A stretch of DNA of 64,000 nt from assembly GCA_938005545.1 (NCBI GenBank), contig CALKXV010000031.1, positions 62,001-126,000 of the forward strand. Reading direction: 5' to 3'. Shown one piece after another: positions 15,677 to 38,444 of the stretch. Position numbers and translations under genes: made by a program. The notes under the pieces are model-generated. The model saw nothing but the letters and a program-made list of their open reading frames with translations, ran no database searches and was not told the DNA's origin. Source of the DNA: an uncultured Paracoccaceae bacterium. GTDB taxonomy: Bacteria; Pseudomonadota; Alphaproteobacteria; Rhodobacterales; Rhodobacteraceae. The stretch's first letter is position 1. Each line of letters opens with the position of its first letter.

Positions 15677-18157
15677 TTATTCCGCGGCGATTCTTGCCGG
15701 GGTATTGTCATTTTGAAAGACGGACACGGCGTTCGAAAGCTGTGTCTTCAGGCCCATCAGATCATCCGTCAATCCCGAATTCGTCGTCGCAAGGGCCAGG
15801 TTGGATCTTGCCGATGCATCCAACTCCGTCATCGCAGCACCAAGATCGCGCAGACCGTTCGCCTGATCTGCGCCCGCCTTCGTGATGTTGTCGATCATCG
15901 ACAGGACGTCGCTCATCGTTTTGCGGACGTCAGTCATGGCATCACCGGTTTGCCGAACGTTGCCTGCACCTGATTTAATTTGGGAAATACTTTCGTTGAT
16001 CAACTCGCCGATTTGCCGCGATGCATCCGCACATCGGCCGGACAGCGACCGCACTTCCGATGCAACCACTGCAAAGCCTTTGCCCGCCGAGCCTGCGCGC
16101 GCGGCTTCGACAGAGGCGTTCAGCGCCAGCAAGTTGGTCTGGAAGGCAATGTCTTCGATTGTTGCGACAATCTTGCTCATTTCTTCGGATGCCGTTTCCA
16201 TCTTTGAGATCGTTTCGACCGCTTTTTCTGTCACCACCTTGCTTTCACTGGTTTTTGTGTCGAGCTGATCAATGAGTTTTCGACATTCCGTCAGTTGTCG
16301 CGCGTTTTCGTCGATGGATGCACCCAGATCGTTCGTGGCCAGAAGCGATGTGTCGACGGCCCGGGCTTGGCCTTCGGACCGCGTTGTCAGGTCGGACGTT
16401 GCTTTGCTGACTTCGGTTGCGGTGCCTTCGATCGATGTAACGCTGGCTGAGATCTGTGAAAACGTGTCCTGGAGTCGGTCAAAGGACTGGTTTGCCGATG
16501 TTCGAATGTCGGCGAATGTACCTTCGTAAACCCCGGTCATCCGTTGGCTGATATTGCCATGGGCCATTCCGGTCAAAAGCTTTTCGACATCACCAAGCGC
16601 CAGTTCGCAGGTGGTTGCGATCTGATTGATCCCATTGCAAATCTCGGCCCATACGCCGGTTTGCCCGGCAACCTCAATTCGCTGCTGGAAATCACCAATC
16701 GAAAAGGCGGCGACGACTTGGTTTATGCTTGCCACCGTGCTTTCTTGTGCCGCTGTAGTTTGTTTTTGGTCTTCCAGAGCTTTTAGATCTCTGTCGCGCT
16801 GCTCGCTTACAACGCTTTCGGCAACGGTCATGATTTCGTTGAGGCCGGTACCAAGGATCCAACTTGGCCCTTCTAAATCACGCAGACGAAGCCGTTGGTC
16901 GAAAACACCCTGTTGCACATGTTGGACGATCCGTTCAATGCCCTTGGCTGAGCGTTTTTCAAGTTCGACCTGCAAGTCGGCTTGTTTCCGGCGATCCAGT
17001 TCAGCGGCCTGAAATTGTGCAAGCGCTGCTGTGATCTTACCTAGATCGGGTTGGGTTTCTTGCACGATTTCACCCGTAATGTCGCCATCGGCCAATTCGT
17101 TGACCCGCGTACTGACCCGGTTCAGCGCGCGGCTGCAAATCCGGACAAATCCACCAGAAATAACGCTGAGAAACAGAAATGCGGCGACAAAAAGCGCAAG
17201 TTCGGTCTTCAAAGTCGAGTTTGCCTCCTCAACGGCATCATTAAGGTGCGCGCGGAATTCATTAACACCCGCATCTTCCATGGCTTTGTACAATAACAAA
17301 AGCCCGGTGATTTCCTCGAACCACTTTTCCGGCGTGTGGGAGAGTACTTGATCGGTTTCGCCAGATTGAATTGCGGTACGGATGGCCGCGACTGATTTGG
17401 CTTCTGGAGTGCTAGTTGCTTGTGTGAGCATGGTTGCCAAAGTGGGCGAAGCGACACTTTGGTAAAGTCCAATAAGGGTCTCGCGTTCCGCGATCAGCAG
17501 TTGAAATCGCGTGAATATTGCGTCCGGAAACGCGGAATTTGCGGCATGCGCGCGCGCAAGACCCGTGGCACCGGTGGCCCTTTCAAGACCAACAACGTCT
17601 TTGCCTGTCATCAGGATTGCATGTCTCTGAACGGCGCGCGCCGCCGGGCTATTTTTGATAAGTTTTCCCAGTTCGGGCGCGAGTTTGATGGCGGCACGGT
17701 TAAGTTTGGTGATCTGGCCGACGGCGTCCAGAACAGGGACATCAAACGCATCGACCCGGTCGCGTAGCGCAGTCAAAGCCGAGATTTGCGCGTCGACCGA
17801 TTCCATTGCTTCGACAAGGGATGCGTCCAGGTCCTGTTGCGAAATTCTTGCCGCTGAAATGCGGAATGTCGCAATGACGCCATCGCTTTTTTCGCGTTGT
17901 TTCGGAAGCGCATCGGCAAAGTTGGCGCCCTGGCTTGCCAAATAGCCGGCACTTGCGCCGCGCTCTTTTTGCAACTCGTGGATCATGCCGCTGATCGCGC
18001 CAACGATTTCGGCAAAAGCAACATCTTGGGCCGACGCCTGAACTTTTCGGTACTCTTGTGTGATGCCAAAACTGGCGAACATGCAAACCGTGATCAATCC
18101 ACAGGCTGTGATTAGGGTCATGGCGTGCGCTATCGAAAGCCGACGCAAGATGTTCAT
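15677..18157 (-). CDS. Methyl-accepting chemotaxis protein with NIT sensor domain
   Basis: 826 residues. TM helix 1 (about 10-30); periplasmic NIT-type nitrate/nitrite-sensing domain (about 45-290) with the LQKERGASAGYLASQG signature; TM helix 2 (about 318-342); HAMP-like region; then a long helical signalling domain with the conserved tip EDIAFQTNLLALNASVEAAR and GKGFAVVASEVRSL. It would signal through CheW-CheA. No CheB/CheR docking pentapeptide is visible at the end (ARIAAE). GGAGAAG precedes the start. No other chemotaxis genes are nearby. Confidence 0.92.
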   Translation of the reverse strand: MNILRRLSIAHAMTLITACGLITVCMFASFGITQEYRKVQASAQDVAFAEIVGAISGMIHELQKERGASAGYLASQGANFADALPKQREKSDGVIATFRISAARISQQDLDASLVEAMESVDAQISALTALRDRVDAFDVPVLDAVGQITKLNRAAIKLAPELGKLIKNSPAARAVQRHAILMTGKDVVGLERATGATGLARAHAANSAFPDAIFTRFQLLIAERETLIGLYQSVASPTLATMLTQATSTPEAKSVAAIRTAIQSGETDQVLSHTPEKWFEEITGLLLLYKAMEDAGVNEFRAHLNDAVEEANSTLKTELALFVAAFLFLSVISGGFVRICSRALNRVSTRVNELADGDITGEIVQETQPDLGKITAALAQFQAAELDRRKQADLQVELEKRSAKGIERIVQHVQQGVFDQRLRLRDLEGPSWILGTGLNEIMTVAESVVSEQRDRDLKALEDQKQTTAAQESTVASINQVVAAFSIGDFQQRIEVAGQTGVWAEICNGINQIATTCELALGDVEKLLTGMAHGNISQRMTGVYEGTFADIRTSANQSFDRLQDTFSQISASVTSIEGTATEVSKATSDLTTRSEGQARAVDTSLLATNDLGASIDENARQLTECRKLIDQLDTKTSESKVVTEKAVETISKMETASEEMSKIVATIEDIAFQTNLLALNASVEAARAGSAGKGFAVVASEVRSLSGRCADASRQIGELINESISQIKSGAGNVRQTGDAMTDVRKTMSDVLSMIDNITKAGADQANGLRDLGAAMTELDASARSNLALATTNSGLTDDLMGLKTQLSNAVSVFQNDNTPARIAAE

Positions 18158-32708: not shown

Positions 32709-34010
32709 ATGTTGGACAGCCCCAAAACCAGACACTCCGCAAAAATACCCCAAGCGCAAAAGGCAATGCCCGGACGCAACGCAAATGAGCGACCCAGTAC
32801 GGGCGAAGCGCCCTTTGCTGCGGACGAAGTTTTTTATTCGCGAACGGACAATCGTGGCGTTATTCTTGCGGGGAACTATTTCTTTCAGCGCACCGCCCAT
32901 TTTGAGTGGAGCGAGCTTATTGGCGCACCGCACAAGCTGATCCGGCACCCGGACATGCCCAAGGGCATATACTGGCTGTTCTGGGACGCGTTGAAATCGG
33001 GCAAACCCATAGGCGCTTATGTGAAAAATAAAGCCAAGGATGGATTGTACTACTGGGTTTTCGCCTGTGTCATCCCAAATGGCGATGAGTTCTTGTCGGC
33101 GCGCATCAAACCGACCAGTGACCTGTTCGCCAAGGTAAAGGATGAATACGCGACCCTGCTTGAAGGCGAAAACGCCGAAGGACTGACGCCGGAAAAAAGC
33201 GGCAAACAGTTTCTGGCACGGCTCAACGAACTTGGCTATGCAGATTACGGACAGTTTGAATCGGCAGCTTTGGCAGAAGAATTGCTATCCAGAAACCGGG
33301 TCTTGGACATCCCGCCGGACGAACGGATTTTGAACTATCGGTCGATGCTGGAATTGTCACAAAAGTTGAAATTGGCCACGGAATCTTTGGTAAGCGAATT
33401 TGAATCGGTTCAAATCATTCCGAACAATATGCGGGTAATGGCCTCACGGCTGGAACCGACCGGCGGGCCGCTGACAACGCTTTCGACGAATTATGGCGCG
33501 ATGTCGACCGAGATTTCGGATTGGTTCGAAAGAAATGTGGTTGGCGAACACAGCACATTCTCTACCATTGCCGACAGTGTGAATGGTTCAATGTTCAACG
33601 AAGCCCTCGTTGGTATTCTTCGACAGTGTGACAAACAGCTGAACGTTGAGAGCAGCAAGACTGGCAATATTGATATCGAGGGGGAAAATGCCATTTTGCG
33701 TCGGATTGTGCGGGAATACGGTGAGACCTCGAGATCCAATACAGACCTGATTATCGATGAAGCAGGCCGTATCCAATATGCCTGCAAAACGATGGCGCGC
33801 CACGTGCTTGGGCTAAGTACGACGCGCGTTATGTGTAAGATCGAAAGCGCGCGCATGGGGCTGTCGGGCGAAGGGCTTTCGGACATTATTGTGCAATTGG
33901 GTCGGTTTCAGGAAAAGATTGGTGATCAGCTGGATGCGATTGCCAAGATGGGTGAGGAAATACAGACGTTCGCTCACAAAATGCTGAACGTGCCAGATGC
34001 GAAACCGTAG
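32709..34010 (+). CDS. Aer-like PAS domain protein lacking a chemoreceptor output domain
   Basis: Up to 433 residues. The PAS domain (about 45-140) closely resembles that of the aerotaxis receptor Aer: HKLIRHPDMPKGIYWLFWDALKSG and KNKAKDGLYYWVFACVIP. In Aer this PAS binds FAD and reads the redox state of the electron transport chain. The rest is helical (coiled coil about 200-260 and 330-425), but there is no HAMP domain, no membrane helix and no conserved MCP tip. It may be a soluble redox sensor that signals by protein contact. It lies just upstream of nuoA. ATG 32766 is an alternative start. Confidence 0.8.
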   Translation: MLDSPKTRHSAKIPQAQKAMPGRNANERPSTGEAPFAADEVFYSRTDNRGVILAGNYFFQRTAHFEWSELIGAPHKLIRHPDMPKGIYWLFWDALKSGKPIGAYVKNKAKDGLYYWVFACVIPNGDEFLSARIKPTSDLFAKVKDEYATLLEGENAEGLTPEKSGKQFLARLNELGYADYGQFESAALAEELLSRNRVLDIPPDERILNYRSMLELSQKLKLATESLVSEFESVQIIPNNMRVMASRLEPTGGPLTTLSTNYGAMSTEISDWFERNVVGEHSTFSTIADSVNGSMFNEALVGILRQCDKQLNVESSKTGNIDIEGENAILRRIVREYGETSRSNTDLIIDEAGRIQYACKTMARHVLGLSTTRVMCKIESARMGLSGEGLSDIIVQLGRFQEKIGDQLDAIAKMGEEIQTFAHKMLNVPDAKP

Positions 34011-34168
34011 GAATATGAGGCAGTTCGCCAGTCAATTTGTGCACGACTTTTTGAGGCGGCAAGGCGCGAACATCCAAGAAGCGTTGACCCGACTTCGAGC
34101 AGGCACTAGGAGTGTGCGCAGGTTTGGAATGAACGCATTATTTGCGTCTTTTTGGTGGAGCGTGCTTC

Positions 34169-34534
34169 GTGGATGATCTTCTAAGGGAATATCTGCCCAT
34201 CCTCGTCTTTCTGGGCATTGCCACAGGCTTGGGGCTTGTGTTGATCCTAGCCGCCCTCATCGTGGCCCCCAATGACGCAGACCCCGAAAAGCTCAGCGCC
34301 TATGAGTGTGGTTTCAATGCTTTTGACGACGCCCGGATGAAGTTCGACGTTCGCTTCTATCTGGTTTCGATCCTTTTCATCATTTTTGACCTTGAGATTG
34401 CCTTCCTGTTCCCATGGGCCGTCGCGTTTGGCGATCTGTCAGATGTTGCGTTCTGGTCCATGATGGCCTTTCTCGCGGTTTTGACGGCTGGTTTTGCCTA
34501 TGAGTGGAAAAAAGGCGCAATGGATTGGGAGTGA
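34169..34534 (+). CDS. nuoA: NADH-quinone oxidoreductase subunit A
   Basis: 121 residues from GTG 34169 (GGAG eight bases upstream). Three membrane helices; motifs [27 protein letters not shown] and [19 protein letters not shown] are diagnostic. NuoA lies at the junction of the membrane arm and the quinone site of complex I. Unusually, a terminator and two leftward genes separate it from nuoB by 1.9 kb. Confidence 0.97.
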
Positions 34535-34563
34535 GGTTCGCCTGACTTTATCCAAGACATAAA

Positions 34564-34586
34564 AGGCCGCCAACGAATGGCGGCCT
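34564..34586. terminator. Terminator after nuoA, probably bidirectional
   Basis: AGGCCGCC (34564-34571), loop AACGAAT, GGCGGCCT (34579-34586), an 8-bp GC-rich perfect stem. CCTTTG follows on the plus strand and TTTTA on the minus strand, so it can serve both nuoA and the convergent VPLPA-CTERM gene. Confidence 0.75.
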
Positions 34587-34610
34587 CCTTTGTTTCACGA
34601 ATTCGGGATT

Positions 34611-35369
34611 CTAGGCACGTCGGCGCATCCATCCCAAAATGCCAAGACCCGCCAGCAAAAGGGGAGCACCCGCCGGCAATGGGACGGGCGAGATTTGAGG
34701 GTCATCGCCGCCGGGCCCAGTTGGATCACCCATCCCGCCGCCGCCATTCGTTCCGCCGTCGTCTGTGAGGAAAAAGGAGGTTAGTTCGATCGGCGCGAAC
34801 CCGGGTAAAGACACCCCAGCGTCTTCCTGGAAAAATGCGATTTGTTCGATCGTGTCCGCTTCTACAATTCCGGCCTGAATGGCTTCACTTAGATCGGACG
34901 ATGACAAAATGGAACTGTCGAACGAAGCCGCATAGCCGATCGCCGACATGGTACCGTTGACGTCTACAAGCGCAGAGGCAAGCAGCAGGTCGAAGACATC
35001 TCCGCCAGTGGATAGATTGTCGACAACAATGAATTCGCCCGGCGCATCCGTTACGCTGGTTGGCGTGCCGGCGATCGAGAATGACAAAAGGATATCGTCG
35101 TATGCTGACGCGCTTCCAATTCCGAAGGTCCCTTGGATTAAGGGAAAAAATTGGTTCGAGTCGGAGGCTTCTAGTTCTGTCGCAATCAGGGTTTGGCCGG
35201 TTTGGTCTGTTGATCCCGTGATTGCAAATGTGACGTTTTGATCGTCGACAGTGCCGTCGTCGTTGGCCAGACCGCCTTGGAAAATGGCCGTGGCCGTCGC
35301 GGCAGATGCCGTTTGGCCGAATAAGGCCACTGCAAGCGCTAGACTTGCAGACATAATAATCGTTTTCAT
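34611..35369 (-). CDS. VPLPA-CTERM sorting domain protein
   Basis: 252 residues. Signal peptide (MKTIIMSASLALAVALFGQTASA), a Ser/Thr/Asp-rich mature region, a Gly/Asp-rich linker (about 215-230), then the sorting tail PVPLPAGAPLLLAGLGILGW plus RRR. VPLPA-CTERM proteins are exported and processed by an exosortase, then often glycosylated and placed at the cell surface. No exosortase gene is in the window. GGGGGAAG precedes ATG 35369. It lies between nuoA and nuoB on the opposite strand, probably a later insertion. Confidence 0.85.
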   Translation of the reverse strand: MKTIIMSASLALAVALFGQTASAATATAIFQGGLANDDGTVDDQNVTFAITGSTDQTGQTLIATELEASDSNQFFPLIQGTFGIGSASAYDDILLSFSIAGTPTSVTDAPGEFIVVDNLSTGGDVFDLLLASALVDVNGTMSAIGYAASFDSSILSSSDLSEAIQAGIVEADTIEQIAFFQEDAGVSLPGFAPIELTSFFLTDDGGTNGGGGMGDPTGPGGDDPQISPVPLPAGAPLLLAGLGILGWMRRRA

Positions 35370-35570
35370 GTAGTCTTCCCCCATAAGTTAACTCATTAAT
35401 CACGCGAAAATCCGCGCAAGGGCATGTTTTTTCAAACTAATTTGTTTGTCAAACGCGACCGCTTCAGGTTTTCGGAACGCAAAGACACAAGCACAGTTGA
35501 AAGGTCTCAGAACAGGGAAAACCGCAAGAAACGGAATGAGATTTTTTCGTTTTGCAAAACACGAAATTTC

Positions 35571-36194
35571 TTAGTCGGCGGGTTTCCATGTGGTTTCGCA
35601 GACAGCCTGGGCTGGATTTCGCTTGTACGATTCGATCAGTCGATCAATGGCGTTGCGGGTGATGTGTTTGTGATCCTCGCTCAATCCAAGAGATGCGACC
35701 ATCTTCCAGTGCCCATACATCAAGCTGACAAATACAAAGGATATCTGTTCGCAAACGGGAAGCGGAATGTTCTGATATTGCTGGCGAAGTTCGTGGCTTA
35801 CGACATGGCCCAGCAGGGTATACTGTTGACGCAGGTTGACTTTTATCCGGTCCGAACGCGCCGCCAATGACATAAGTGCATCATAGACTTGATCATCGCG
35901 CGGCTTGCGCGGTGCGTCCAAAAGATCGAAATAGAAATCCAGAAAGAGGCCAATGCGGTCTTCGTTTTCGCGCGAGGCCATGCCTTGGATCAAGGCCTCG
36001 CGATAGACCGTCGCGACCTTGTCGCAAAGCGCAAGCATCAAATCATCGGGGTTTGGAAAGTAGTAACGCACCAATTGCCTTTTTACGCCTGCGGCCTCGG
36101 CGACACTGCTATACGACACATGCGGTAAGCCCTCAGCCATCAATAATTTGAAGGCGCCTTCAACAATCTCTGCCGCCCGATCCTCTGATTTCAT
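35571..36194 (-). CDS. TetR family transcriptional regulator
   Basis: 207 residues from ATG 36194 (GGGGA eight bases upstream). The HTH (about 5-50) has AEIVEGAFKLLMAEGLPHVSYSSVAEAAGVKRQLVRYYF; the rest is a helical ligand domain. In-frame ATGs at 36209 and 36239 are possible. The palindrome GAAACACGTTTC (36220-36231) falls upstream of the chosen start and could be its own operator, which favours a downstream start. It diverges from nuoB but a link to complex I is only positional. Confidence 0.8.
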   Translation of the reverse strand: MKSEDRAAEIVEGAFKLLMAEGLPHVSYSSVAEAAGVKRQLVRYYFPNPDDLMLALCDKVATVYREALIQGMASRENEDRIGLFLDFYFDLLDAPRKPRDDQVYDALMSLAARSDRIKVNLRQQYTLLGHVVSHELRQQYQNIPLPVCEQISFVFVSLMYGHWKMVASLGLSEDHKHITRNAIDRLIESYKRNPAQAVCETTWKPAD

Positions 36195-36263
36195 TTTGCG
36201 TTTCCCCATTTTCACAAAAGAAACACGTTTCCTGGCCATCTAAGCAAGGATCATGGTGGTGTT

Positions 36264-36286
36264 TTTGCAAAGCGCAAATTTTTTTT
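36264..36286 (+). terminator. Possible terminator or attenuator upstream of nuoB
   Basis: TTTGC (36264-36268), loop AAAGC, GCAAA (36274-36278), followed by eight Ts. It has terminator form on the plus strand, yet no plus-strand gene lies just before it. It could block read-through towards nuoB. Confidence 0.35.
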
Positions 36287-36421
36287 CGCCTCAATCAGTC
36301 GCAATTTTGGTTGTTCAGCATTTCTTTAAGATTCTGGCAGATTGCTCTGTCAATATAGGGCTCTCGCGCGTTGACCCCCTTGGTCTGACGGGCTAAACCC
36401 CAGCCAACAAGAGGTGAGCCA

Positions 36422-36955
36422 ATGAGCGTTGCAACAACAGCGAACACAGCCGGTCCTGATCGCGAGGTCGCAACCCATGCGATCAACAACGAATTGCAGG
36501 ACAAAGGCTTTCTGGTCACCTCGACGGATGACATCATCAATTGGGCACGGACGGGCTCGCTGCACTGGATGACCTTTGGCTTGGCCTGTTGCGCAGTTGA
36601 AATGATGCACACCGCTATGCCGCGCTACGATATGGAACGTTTCGGCACCGCACCGCGTGCCAGCCCGCGCCAGTCTGATCTGATGATCGTGGCCGGTACG
36701 CTGACCAACAAAATGGCCCCGGCGCTTCGTAAGGTTTACGACCAGATGCCCGAGCCGCGCTATGTGATCTCGATGGGTTCTTGTGCAAACGGCGGTGGTT
36801 ATTACCATTATAGCTATTCCGTTGTACGGGGATGTGACCGGGTTGTGCCGGTCGATATCTATGTTCCGGGCTGCCCACCGACGGCCGAGGCTCTTTTGTA
36901 CGGTATTCTTCAGCTCCAGCGGAAAATTCGCCGCACGGGCACGATCACGCGATAG
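36422..36955 (+). CDS. nuoB: NADH-quinone oxidoreductase subunit B
   Basis: 177 residues. Cluster N2 ligands: paired cysteines in [20 protein letters not shown] and [15 protein letters not shown]2 passes electrons to quinone. AGAGGTGA precedes ATG. A possible promoter, TTGACC (36371-36376), 17 bases, TAAACC (36394-36399), lies close upstream, which fits nuoB starting its own transcript given the break after nuoA. nuoC follows after 11 bases. Confidence 0.98.
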
Positions 36956-36966
36956 GAGACGATTTC

Positions 36967-37581
36967 ATGTCTGTAGAGCTGGAAGAACTCGCCGCCCACA
37001 TTACAGCCAAACGCCCGGATTGCGTGCTTGGTCACGACATCGCATTTGGCGAGTTGAACATGACCGTGGCGCTGTCCTCGCTGGTCAACCTGGTGGATTT
37101 CCTGAAGACCGACAAGAACAGCCTGTTTTCTTCGCTGGTCGACATCACCGCCGTCGATTATCCCGAGCGCGACGTGCGTTTCGAAGTCGTCTATCACTTT
37201 CTGTCGATGTACCAAAACCACCGTATCCGCCTGAAAGTCGCGGTGCGCGAAGACGACATCATGCCGTCTTTGAACGAAATCCACCCGTCTGCCGGTTGGT
37301 TCGAACGCGAAGTCTTCGATATGTTTGGGATATTGTTCTCGGGCCATCCGGATTTGCGTCGCATCCTGACCGACTATGGGTTCCGTGGGTATCCGTTAAG
37401 GAAAGATTTCCCAACAACGGGCTACACCGAAGTGCGTTATGACGAAGCGCAAAAACGCGTGGTTTATGAGCCTGTGAATTTGGTTCAGGAATACCGCCAG
37501 TTCGATTTTATGTCGCCATGGGAAGGGGCTGAATACATCCTGCCGGGCGACGACAAGGCAGAAGCCGAGGCAAAGGCCTGA
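36967..37581 (+). CDS. nuoC: NADH-quinone oxidoreductase subunit C
   Basis: 204 residues of the 30-kDa subunit with [22 protein letters not shown] and [13 protein letters not shown]. It belongs to the peripheral arm, bridging NuoB and NuoD, and is separate from NuoD here (fused in enterobacteria). A sulfotransferase gene starts three bases after its stop. Confidence 0.98.
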
Positions 37582-37583
37582 CA

Positions 37584-38444
37584 GTGAACGTGGTGTTCTT
37601 TTGCATAGGGGCCGCAAAGGCCGGGACGGACTGGTTGCACCGGCAATTGGTTCAGCATCCCGATTGTCACCTGCGTTCGATCAAGGAGCTCCACTATTTC
37701 GATGCCATCGACGGCAATCACCTGAACCGCGAATTGCAAAAGCATCGTGGGATTCAAAAGGATCTGTTAACCAAGCTTGCCAAAGACGGCCAAGTGCCGG
37801 ATGCGGGGCAGGGGCGGCGTCTTGCTGATCGTGCCTCTTGGTTGGATGTGCTTGAAACCGGCCACGAAGATACGTCTGCCTATCTTGACTATTTGCGCGA
37901 TGGCGCGAAACCGGGGCAAGTGGTCGCCGATATCACGCCTGCTTATGCGCTTTTGCCAGAAACTCGTCTTAAGGCGATGGCCAACATGACTGACGATGTC
38001 CGGTTTTTGTACCTGTTGCGCGACCCGGTTGAACGGCTTTGGAGCCATGTGCGGATGATCGCGGCGCGACGCGACGACAAGGGCCAACTCAAGCGCCAAA
38101 GGGCCGCAAATATTTTGGACCGGGTGATCACTGGCAAAGAGACGCAGATTGCGGATCGAAGCGATTATGCGGGAACATTGATGCGCCTGAAATCTGCGGT
38201 TCCCAGCAAACAGTTGTTGGTCGACGCGATTGAAGACATGGTTTCGGGCGATGGGATCAAGCGGCTTTGCGGTTTTCTGGGCATTGCGCCGATGACGGGT
38301 GATCTTAGCCCGGTTCATGCAGGCCAGCCGTTGGATATGACGCGCGATCAGCGACACGCGGCGGCCAAATGGCTGGCCCCTCAGTATGATGCGGCGGAAG
38401 CGGCGCTTGGGTCTTTGCCCAAGACGTGGTCCCGGGAAGGATAG
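37584..38444 (+). CDS. Sulfotransferase family protein inside the nuo operon
   Basis: 286 residues from GTG 37584. The PAPS-binding 5' loop is near the N-terminus (FFCIGAAKAGTDWLHRQL) and the 3'-phosphate-binding part is in LYLLRDPVERLWSHVRM (about 135-152). It would transfer sulfate from PAPS to a carbohydrate, lipid or other hydroxyl. It begins three bases after nuoC and ends immediately before nuoD, so it is surely cotranscribed with complex I. No reason for this pairing is known to me. It may be a captured gene. Confidence 0.83.
   Translation: MNVVFFCIGAAKAGTDWLHRQLVQHPDCHLRSIKELHYFDAIDGNHLNRELQKHRGIQKDLLTKLAKDGQVPDAGQGRRLADRASWLDVLETGHEDTSAYLDYLRDGAKPGQVVADITPAYALLPETRLKAMANMTDDVRFLYLLRDPVERLWSHVRMIAARRDDKGQLKRQRAANILDRVITGKETQIADRSDYAGTLMRLKSAVPSKQLLVDAIEDMVSGDGIKRLCGFLGIAPMTGDLSPVHAGQPLDMTRDQRHAAAKWLAPQYDAAEAALGSLPKTWSREG

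Follow-up and report, generated by a model that had tools for sequence, protein, structure and literature searches.

A putative cytosolic Aer-like receptor with a candidate single-chain MCP-like output, encoded beside nuoA in a Rhodobacteraceae genome

Introduction

The question raised by this locus is what a PAS protein reports to when its sensor resembles that of Aer and its gene lies just before nuoA of complex I. The gene is carried on a 64,000-nucleotide stretch of DNA from an uncultured Paracoccaceae bacterium, called here the window. An original prediction, made from the letters alone, took the product for a soluble redox sensor that keeps the Aer hallmarks in its PAS domain, lacks a chemoreceptor output, carries an output of a new kind and is linked with the nuo genes. 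The gene, its predicted product, its relatives and their neighbourhoods were analysed computationally.

Results and Discussion

An Aer-type PAS domain with likely FAD binding

The plus-strand frame 32709-34010 opens with ATG as the start codon, which is backed by N-termini that are alike in two relatives (MFDTPK, MLESQS). The span first assigned to the feature, 32709-34534, has the right start, but its end is that of nuoA, and the gene itself ends at 34010 (Table 1). The gene is present as a single copy in the source genome, and its closest relatives are found in Silicimonas-type genomes of the Rhodobacteraceae.

Table 1. Features of the PAS-bundle gene in the window
Feature	Position	Strand	Residues and remarks
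Whole gene: PAS, helical linker and four-helix bundle	32709..34010	+	433 aa, predicted soluble
Aer-type PAS domain	32826..33113	+	40-135; H75, R79, W92, N107 and R132 are putative FAD-contact residues, also G50
Linker helices replacing membrane/HAMP	33120..33302	+	138-157, 161-174, 180-198; predicted model
Hairpin A of C-terminal four-helix bundle	33321..33647	+	205-313; predicted model
Tip A	33438..33467	+	244-253, ASR247-x4-G252; aligned with MCP tip
Hairpin B of C-terminal four-helix bundle	33675..33986	+	323-426; predicted from model and profile
Tip B	33843..33872	+	379-388, ESAR382-x4-G387; E379 aligned with MCP tip Glu

Pfam recognised one domain over its cut-off in the protein, PAS_3 (E 1.5e-6), and NCBIfam listed NifL alone, below threshold, over the PAS region. 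The top PDB match by sequence was the PAS domain of E. coli Aer, 8dik (E 2.4e-19), which was also nearest by fold: the predicted PAS domain was superimposed on it with Z 15.6 over 122 residues at 1.4 A. Both of the expected Aer hallmarks are present, RHPDMP at residues 79-84 and KNKAKDGLYYWV beginning at residue 106. In the excerpted text of PMC9668731, the residues of Aer that touch FAD are H53, R57, W70, N85 and R115, with M69 as another contact, and the S28G substitution is stabilising. These positions were transferred to the window protein through its alignment with 8dik and counted over 125 non-redundant relatives. H53 corresponds to H75 (kept in 119 relatives), R57 to R79 (123), W70 to W92 (122), N85 to N107 (123) and R115 to R132 (114), while position 28 of Aer is natively a glycine, G50, in 124 of the 125. 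The M69 contact was not retained in this set, with F in 56, L in 35 and M in 21. Because the Aer contact residues are kept in the relatives, the PAS domain is likely to bind FAD. The peak 19-residue hydropathy of the protein is 0.85, so that no membrane helix is expected; together with the conserved residues this agrees with the description of a soluble redox sensor of the Aer type, with FAD binding probable.

A predicted four-helix bundle follows the PAS domain

That no membrane segment, HAMP domain or Pfam-significant MCP domain follows the PAS domain was borne out by hydropathy and Pfam scans alike. Neither HAMP nor MCPsignal was listed for the window protein (Pfam, E <= 10), HAMP was listed in none of 34 homologues scanned individually, and the membrane anchor plus HAMP of the Aer receptor proper were not found in the window protein. 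The impression that nothing at all follows the PAS domain was mistaken, as it missed a conserved helical domain at residues 205-426.

The AlphaFold2 model of the full protein had a pLDDT of 89.4 and a pTM of 0.85 (58 sequences), and that of the C-terminus alone 90.7 and 0.85. VIA-align matched residues 205-429 to single-chain four-helix bundles with Z 17.8 over 182 aligned residues at 2.2 A, and in a second match with Z 17.1 over 191 residues at 2.4 A. In the predicted model DSSP assigns 323-426 as one helix. Against this assignment, a tight turn at tip B appears probable, because 182-191 residues align to four-helix bundles and most three-helix BAR matches stop at about residues 383-386. The chain would then run up to tip A (249-253), down, through the loop 314-322, up to tip B (about 383-388) and down again, and the four-helix-bundle matches suggest that both tips lie at the same end of the bundle. 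The helix arms have about 40-60 residues in the model and appear too short to hold the methylation helices of a canonical MCP. Mean conservation is 3.04 bits in the two tips versus 1.81 in the rest of the bundle, and among 57 slid placements of the tip windows the true placement alone was as high as 3.04 bits, the tip borders having been chosen with the alignment already in view.

Other identities for the bundle were considered. Foldseek and VIA returned chiefly designed four-helix bundles, pore-forming proteins and BAR domains, which were judged to be general helical matches, and the soluble chemoreceptor 3g6b was a weak match (E 0.23). A kinase-type (DHp) output was rejected, there being no histidine conserved throughout the bundle in the family alignments.

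Comparison of the bundle with MCP signalling tips

Pfam MCPsignal (PF00015) was over its cut-off in none of 35 members, i.e. the window protein and 34 homologues. It was listed for one of them (L024), in the hairpin-B region at E 0.25 and 11.6 bits against a cut-off of 34.6, and for none of six additional relatives. A PDB-sequence profile search with the bundle gave no MCP at E <= 10, and a profile comparison with an earlier 7-sequence MCP alignment was uninformative.

A profile of hairpin B (residues 318-428) was searched against 4810 de-duplicated non-family frames, including 35 MCPs that had been fetched partly on purpose. MCPs took all of the top 15 places and 29 of the top 50, with 18.3 bits for the best MCP against 7.1 for the best non-MCP frame; before de-duplication (5544 frames) they took 15 of 15 and 35 of 50. 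The reversed profile placed four MCPs in its top 15, and reversed MCP sequences scored 6.2 bits or less with the hairpin-B profile. When the profile was shuffled in heptad blocks 150 times, on average 7.1 MCPs appeared in the top 15, so that MCPs are favoured by make-up alone. Two of these 150 shuffles reached 15 of 15 MCPs and three reached 18.3 bits, which makes the ranking unusual at about 1 to 2 in 100, and with duplicate MCP frames retained none of 60 shuffled profiles was as good. MCP frames were identified by a tip pattern which overlooks some MCPs: L158, the top hairpin-A match among the frames counted as non-MCP, sits at a PF00015 match.

The register of these alignments was also followed. 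Of 36 non-redundant MCPs, 28 aligned their tip glutamate with E379 (tip uncovered in 4, unreported in 4, elsewhere in none) and 15 with residue 244 (uncovered in 15, unreported in 6, elsewhere in none), counts that are not independent, as MCPs share descent. With the whole-bundle profile the tip glutamate was placed at 379 in 23 of 36, at 244 in two and at 335 in one. In a direct comparison hairpin A aligned with hairpin B at an offset of 135 (379 minus 244), the same register as the MCP tip. By HHalign, hairpin B matched MCPs with P 0.0016, which was equalled by 7 of 150 block shuffles, and the score of hairpin A with hairpin B was likewise equalled by 7 of 150; the score of hairpin A with MCPs did not stand out from shuffles, of which 43 of 150 were as high. 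Judged from these sequence comparisons, the C-terminal bundle is probably, though not provenly, a diverged homologue of the MCP signalling tip.

Distribution of the family

Sampling of 394 genomes from the bacterial family yielded a homologue at E <= 1e-10 in 93, and at least 80% of the query was covered in one place in 90 of these 93; the three exceptions are G159, where the match is in two pieces, G241 (residues 22-99) and G321 (225-419). The relatives on genome contigs came from an alignment search and are the best 80 of 357, and a single-protein search of genome contigs gave no relatives. In 337 genomes of the class the bundle profile found three genomes of the same bacterial family and one MCP, and with a class-wide sample so poor in matches the bundle family seems to be rare elsewhere. 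This sole match outside the family was a soluble MCP, aligned in register at E 8.6e-4 per genome, for which about 0.3 is expected by chance over 337 genomes. Across 196 genomes of the order no bundle match clearly beyond the bacterial family was significant, seven lying at E 0.006-0.09. A 385-aa soluble MCP from another family of the same class (L215, 856-2010, plus strand) has an N-terminal part that looks globin-like by eye.

Plasmid relatives with both hairpin regions were found in Rhodobacter capsulatus, Rhodobacter sp. CZR27, Neorhizobium and Rhizobium sp. BG6; two of the plasmid records are annotated 'PAS domain-containing protein' and one 'aerotaxis receptor'. Among the best 25 of 2229 plasmid records, matches from H13 down span residues 2-198 at most, and in a Vibrio plasmid record (H7) an MCP tip of the usual kind was identified by eye. 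A plasmid gene of Actinomyces oris (L222, 3103-4467), called 'chemotaxis protein', has a related PAS domain and no clear hairpin B; the genus Actinomyces is not known to be motile. In several genomes the homologue is repeated in tandem, with as many as three consecutive copies (L007/L036/L080, L077, L029, L030, L027).

Chemotaxis genes and a proposed mechanism

By tblastn, 9 of 140 loci have cheA or cheW flanking or surrounding the homologue, in a set where many contigs occur twice and some loci are short. Seven of the nine (G246, G113, G210, G111, G380, G062, G129) had been fetched because CheW was near, and the other two (G005, G257) belong to 11 fetched regardless of che genes. The che operons by the homologues comprise STAS, CheY, CheA, CheW and CheR, and some add an MCP, CheB or CheD. 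In L163 the homologue stands directly before STAS, CheY, CheA, CheW, CheR and CheY, and in L165, L172 and L176 it sits within the che cluster in the same orientation. Pfam confirmed STAS, receivers, CheA, CheW and CheR in L163, the MCP in L165, and CheB and CheD in L166; the labels in other loci were given by similarity to these genes. The nine che-linked homologues fall at three places in the tree, one of which is weakly supported (81/96). The tblastn search found no cheA or cheW in the 40 loci of highest identity or in 80 genome-contig loci, so the window gene's own branch is not che-linked, and no che genes lie beside the window gene. At the level of genomes, a CheW-like domain (CheW or CheA) was found in 88 of the 93 with a homologue versus 104 of 301 others (Fisher p 4e-27, uncorrected for shared ancestry). 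Four of the five homologue genomes without it have MCPs; the fifth, G241, has the partial PAS match alone and no MCP.

The view that a chemoreceptor output is missing is thus probably wrong, the bundle being a plausible diverged MCP-type tip and some relatives lying in che operons. The suggestion of a new kind of output survives in that Pfam does not recognise it; in type it is probably that of an MCP, and single-chain MCPs have precedents.

On balance we lean towards the window protein being a cytosolic Aer-like energy-taxis receptor with a single-chain MCP-like output, the neighbouring nuoA having no part in the mechanism. From the conserved residues, the PAS domain would bind FAD and read the cellular redox state. 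In the model, the change could be relayed through the three short linker helices. The output would consist of two short hairpins with tips pointing the same way in a single-chain four-helix bundle, as the fold, the profile ranking and the conservation suggest, and would amount to a covalent pseudo-dimer of the MCP protein-contact end that lacks the HAMP, membrane anchor and methylation helices. Going by gene context, the tips might dock on CheA/CheW, or insert into receptor arrays of mixed composition, and so bias swimming by redox state. More tentatively, the protein may be a miniature one-chain chemoreceptor built from two diverged MCP-tip hairpins, folded into this pseudo-dimer under an Aer FAD-PAS domain and lacking any membrane part as well as HAMP and a methylation region.

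A rather unlikely alternative is that the PAS protein is an input module docking on a separate signalling MCP, with the bundle as a non-MCP docking or dimerisation domain. CetB of Campylobacter and CetB2 of Magnetospirillum are likewise FAD-PAS proteins without a recognised MCP domain, and in the excerpted texts of PMC13401364 and PMC2628428 Campylobacter CetB is an isolated FAD-PAS protein acting through CetA, described without such a bundle. The window protein, by comparison, adds a conserved C-terminal bundle, and neither a CetA-like nor any other MCP gene adjoins its gene. Some relatives do have an MCP nearby: in L050 it is the next gene, in G096 it lies about 1.3 kb off, in L165 it belongs to the operon, and in L130 and L044/L135 (one contig) it is no more than about 8 kb distant. 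The E-values of the bundle profile to MCPs are not significant, and both observations would suit a docking module. Conservation is concentrated in the two tips of the bundle, the part in which the CheA/CheW contact site of MCPs lies, and this argues against it.

It is improbable that the bundle mimics an MCP tip and brakes signalling, by competing for CheW/CheA or by capping array edges in one FAD redox state. Such a brake would share the tip evidence (conservation, profile ranking and register) with the receptor reading, and it would suit arms that look far shorter than those of ordinary MCP classes and may not reach normal array geometry.

Two further MCP domains were noticed close by. An ordinary MCP signalling domain lies at about 15818-16255 (minus strand) of the window, inside an 837-aa frame. 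Just beyond the window end, a 730-aa frame (G000 C31:127884-129344) has two PAS matches to the window protein and an MCP domain, and by its layout may be an AerC-like soluble receptor.

Relation to known receptors

The energy-taxis receptor reading can be set beside several known systems. E. coli Aer (PDB 8dik, 31cj) is like the window protein in PAS sequence, fold and FAD-contact residues; the window protein differs in having no transmembrane anchor, HAMP or Pfam-significant MCP domain, and a predicted short single-chain bundle where Aer has a homodimeric long hairpin. AerC-type PAS_FAD2 receptors are cytosolic FAD-PAS energy-taxis receptors, as proposed here, with an ordinary MCP domain. AerC has two PAS domains in the excerpted text of PMC13401364. 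Soluble single-chain MCP signalling domains, in Rhodospirillum centenum and in the engineered Tsr~Tsr receptors, have two signalling hairpins per chain according to PMC4692393, which gives the roles of the natural relatives of Tsr~Tsr as unknown; the window protein would share this layout, but an Aer PAS domain drives its hairpins, which are short and have diverged beyond recognition by Pfam. Two signalling regions in one cytoplasmic polypeptide are also present in DosM of Vibrio cholerae, an extended rod that carries one of them at either end according to the excerpted text of PMC7534058, whereas the two tips of the window protein would lie at one end. The window protein fits none of these systems exactly, and no description of the family was found in titles and abstract beginnings (PMC). 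We hold with moderate confidence that it is a variant of Aer-type chemoreceptors whose output was previously overlooked.

If this is true, the family in those 93 sampled genomes and on the Rhizobium-type and Rhodobacter capsulatus plasmids would represent overlooked redox chemoreceptors, Pfam-based chemoreceptor counts would be too low in these bacteria, and the protein would show how little of an MCP suffices for output, as a natural single-chain counterpart of the engineered Tsr~Tsr receptors. Should the bundle control CheA, it would be a natural methylation-free receptor missed by Pfam and, to our knowledge, smaller in its output than any known MCP class.

The nuo neighbourhood

The nuoA frame 3' of the gene is listed from 34142 and ends at 34534; on inspection, GTG 34169 looks like a more probable start codon, which would leave a gap of about 158 bp. 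NuoA was found near the homologue in 5 of 140 loci, which amount to three distinct contigs besides the window (L033/L073, L034/L074, L078), all Silicimonas-type, and was not found in the other 135, some of them duplicate or short. The order EcsC, PAS-bundle gene, nuoA is common to the window and these contigs, and the distance from the homologue to the nuoA match varies (801, 630 and 139 bp, respectively). In the other loci that were read by eye the neighbours differ, for example ilvE together with MarR/response-regulator genes, or a KefB-like antiporter, as named by eye. With nuoA limited to Silicimonas-type genomes and other neighbours elsewhere, the nuo link appears to be local, and a conserved association did not hold across genomes. 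Redox regulation of complex I, of its expression or its activity, was suggested first by the location directly before nuoA, which the three contigs share with the window. This reading is very improbable and was rejected, given the neighbourhood that is not conserved, the variable spacing, the che linkage in other loci and the lack of any DNA-binding domain listed by Pfam or NCBIfam.

The nuo operon itself is split in the window (region 34142-38444). Between nuoA and nuoB are two minus-strand genes, 34611-35384 for a VPLPA-CTERM protein and 35571-36239 for a TetR-like regulator; nuoC and nuoD are separated by a sulfotransferase-like gene (37584-38444). A wide nuoA-nuoB gap and a sulfotransferase are also seen in L033, L034 and L078.
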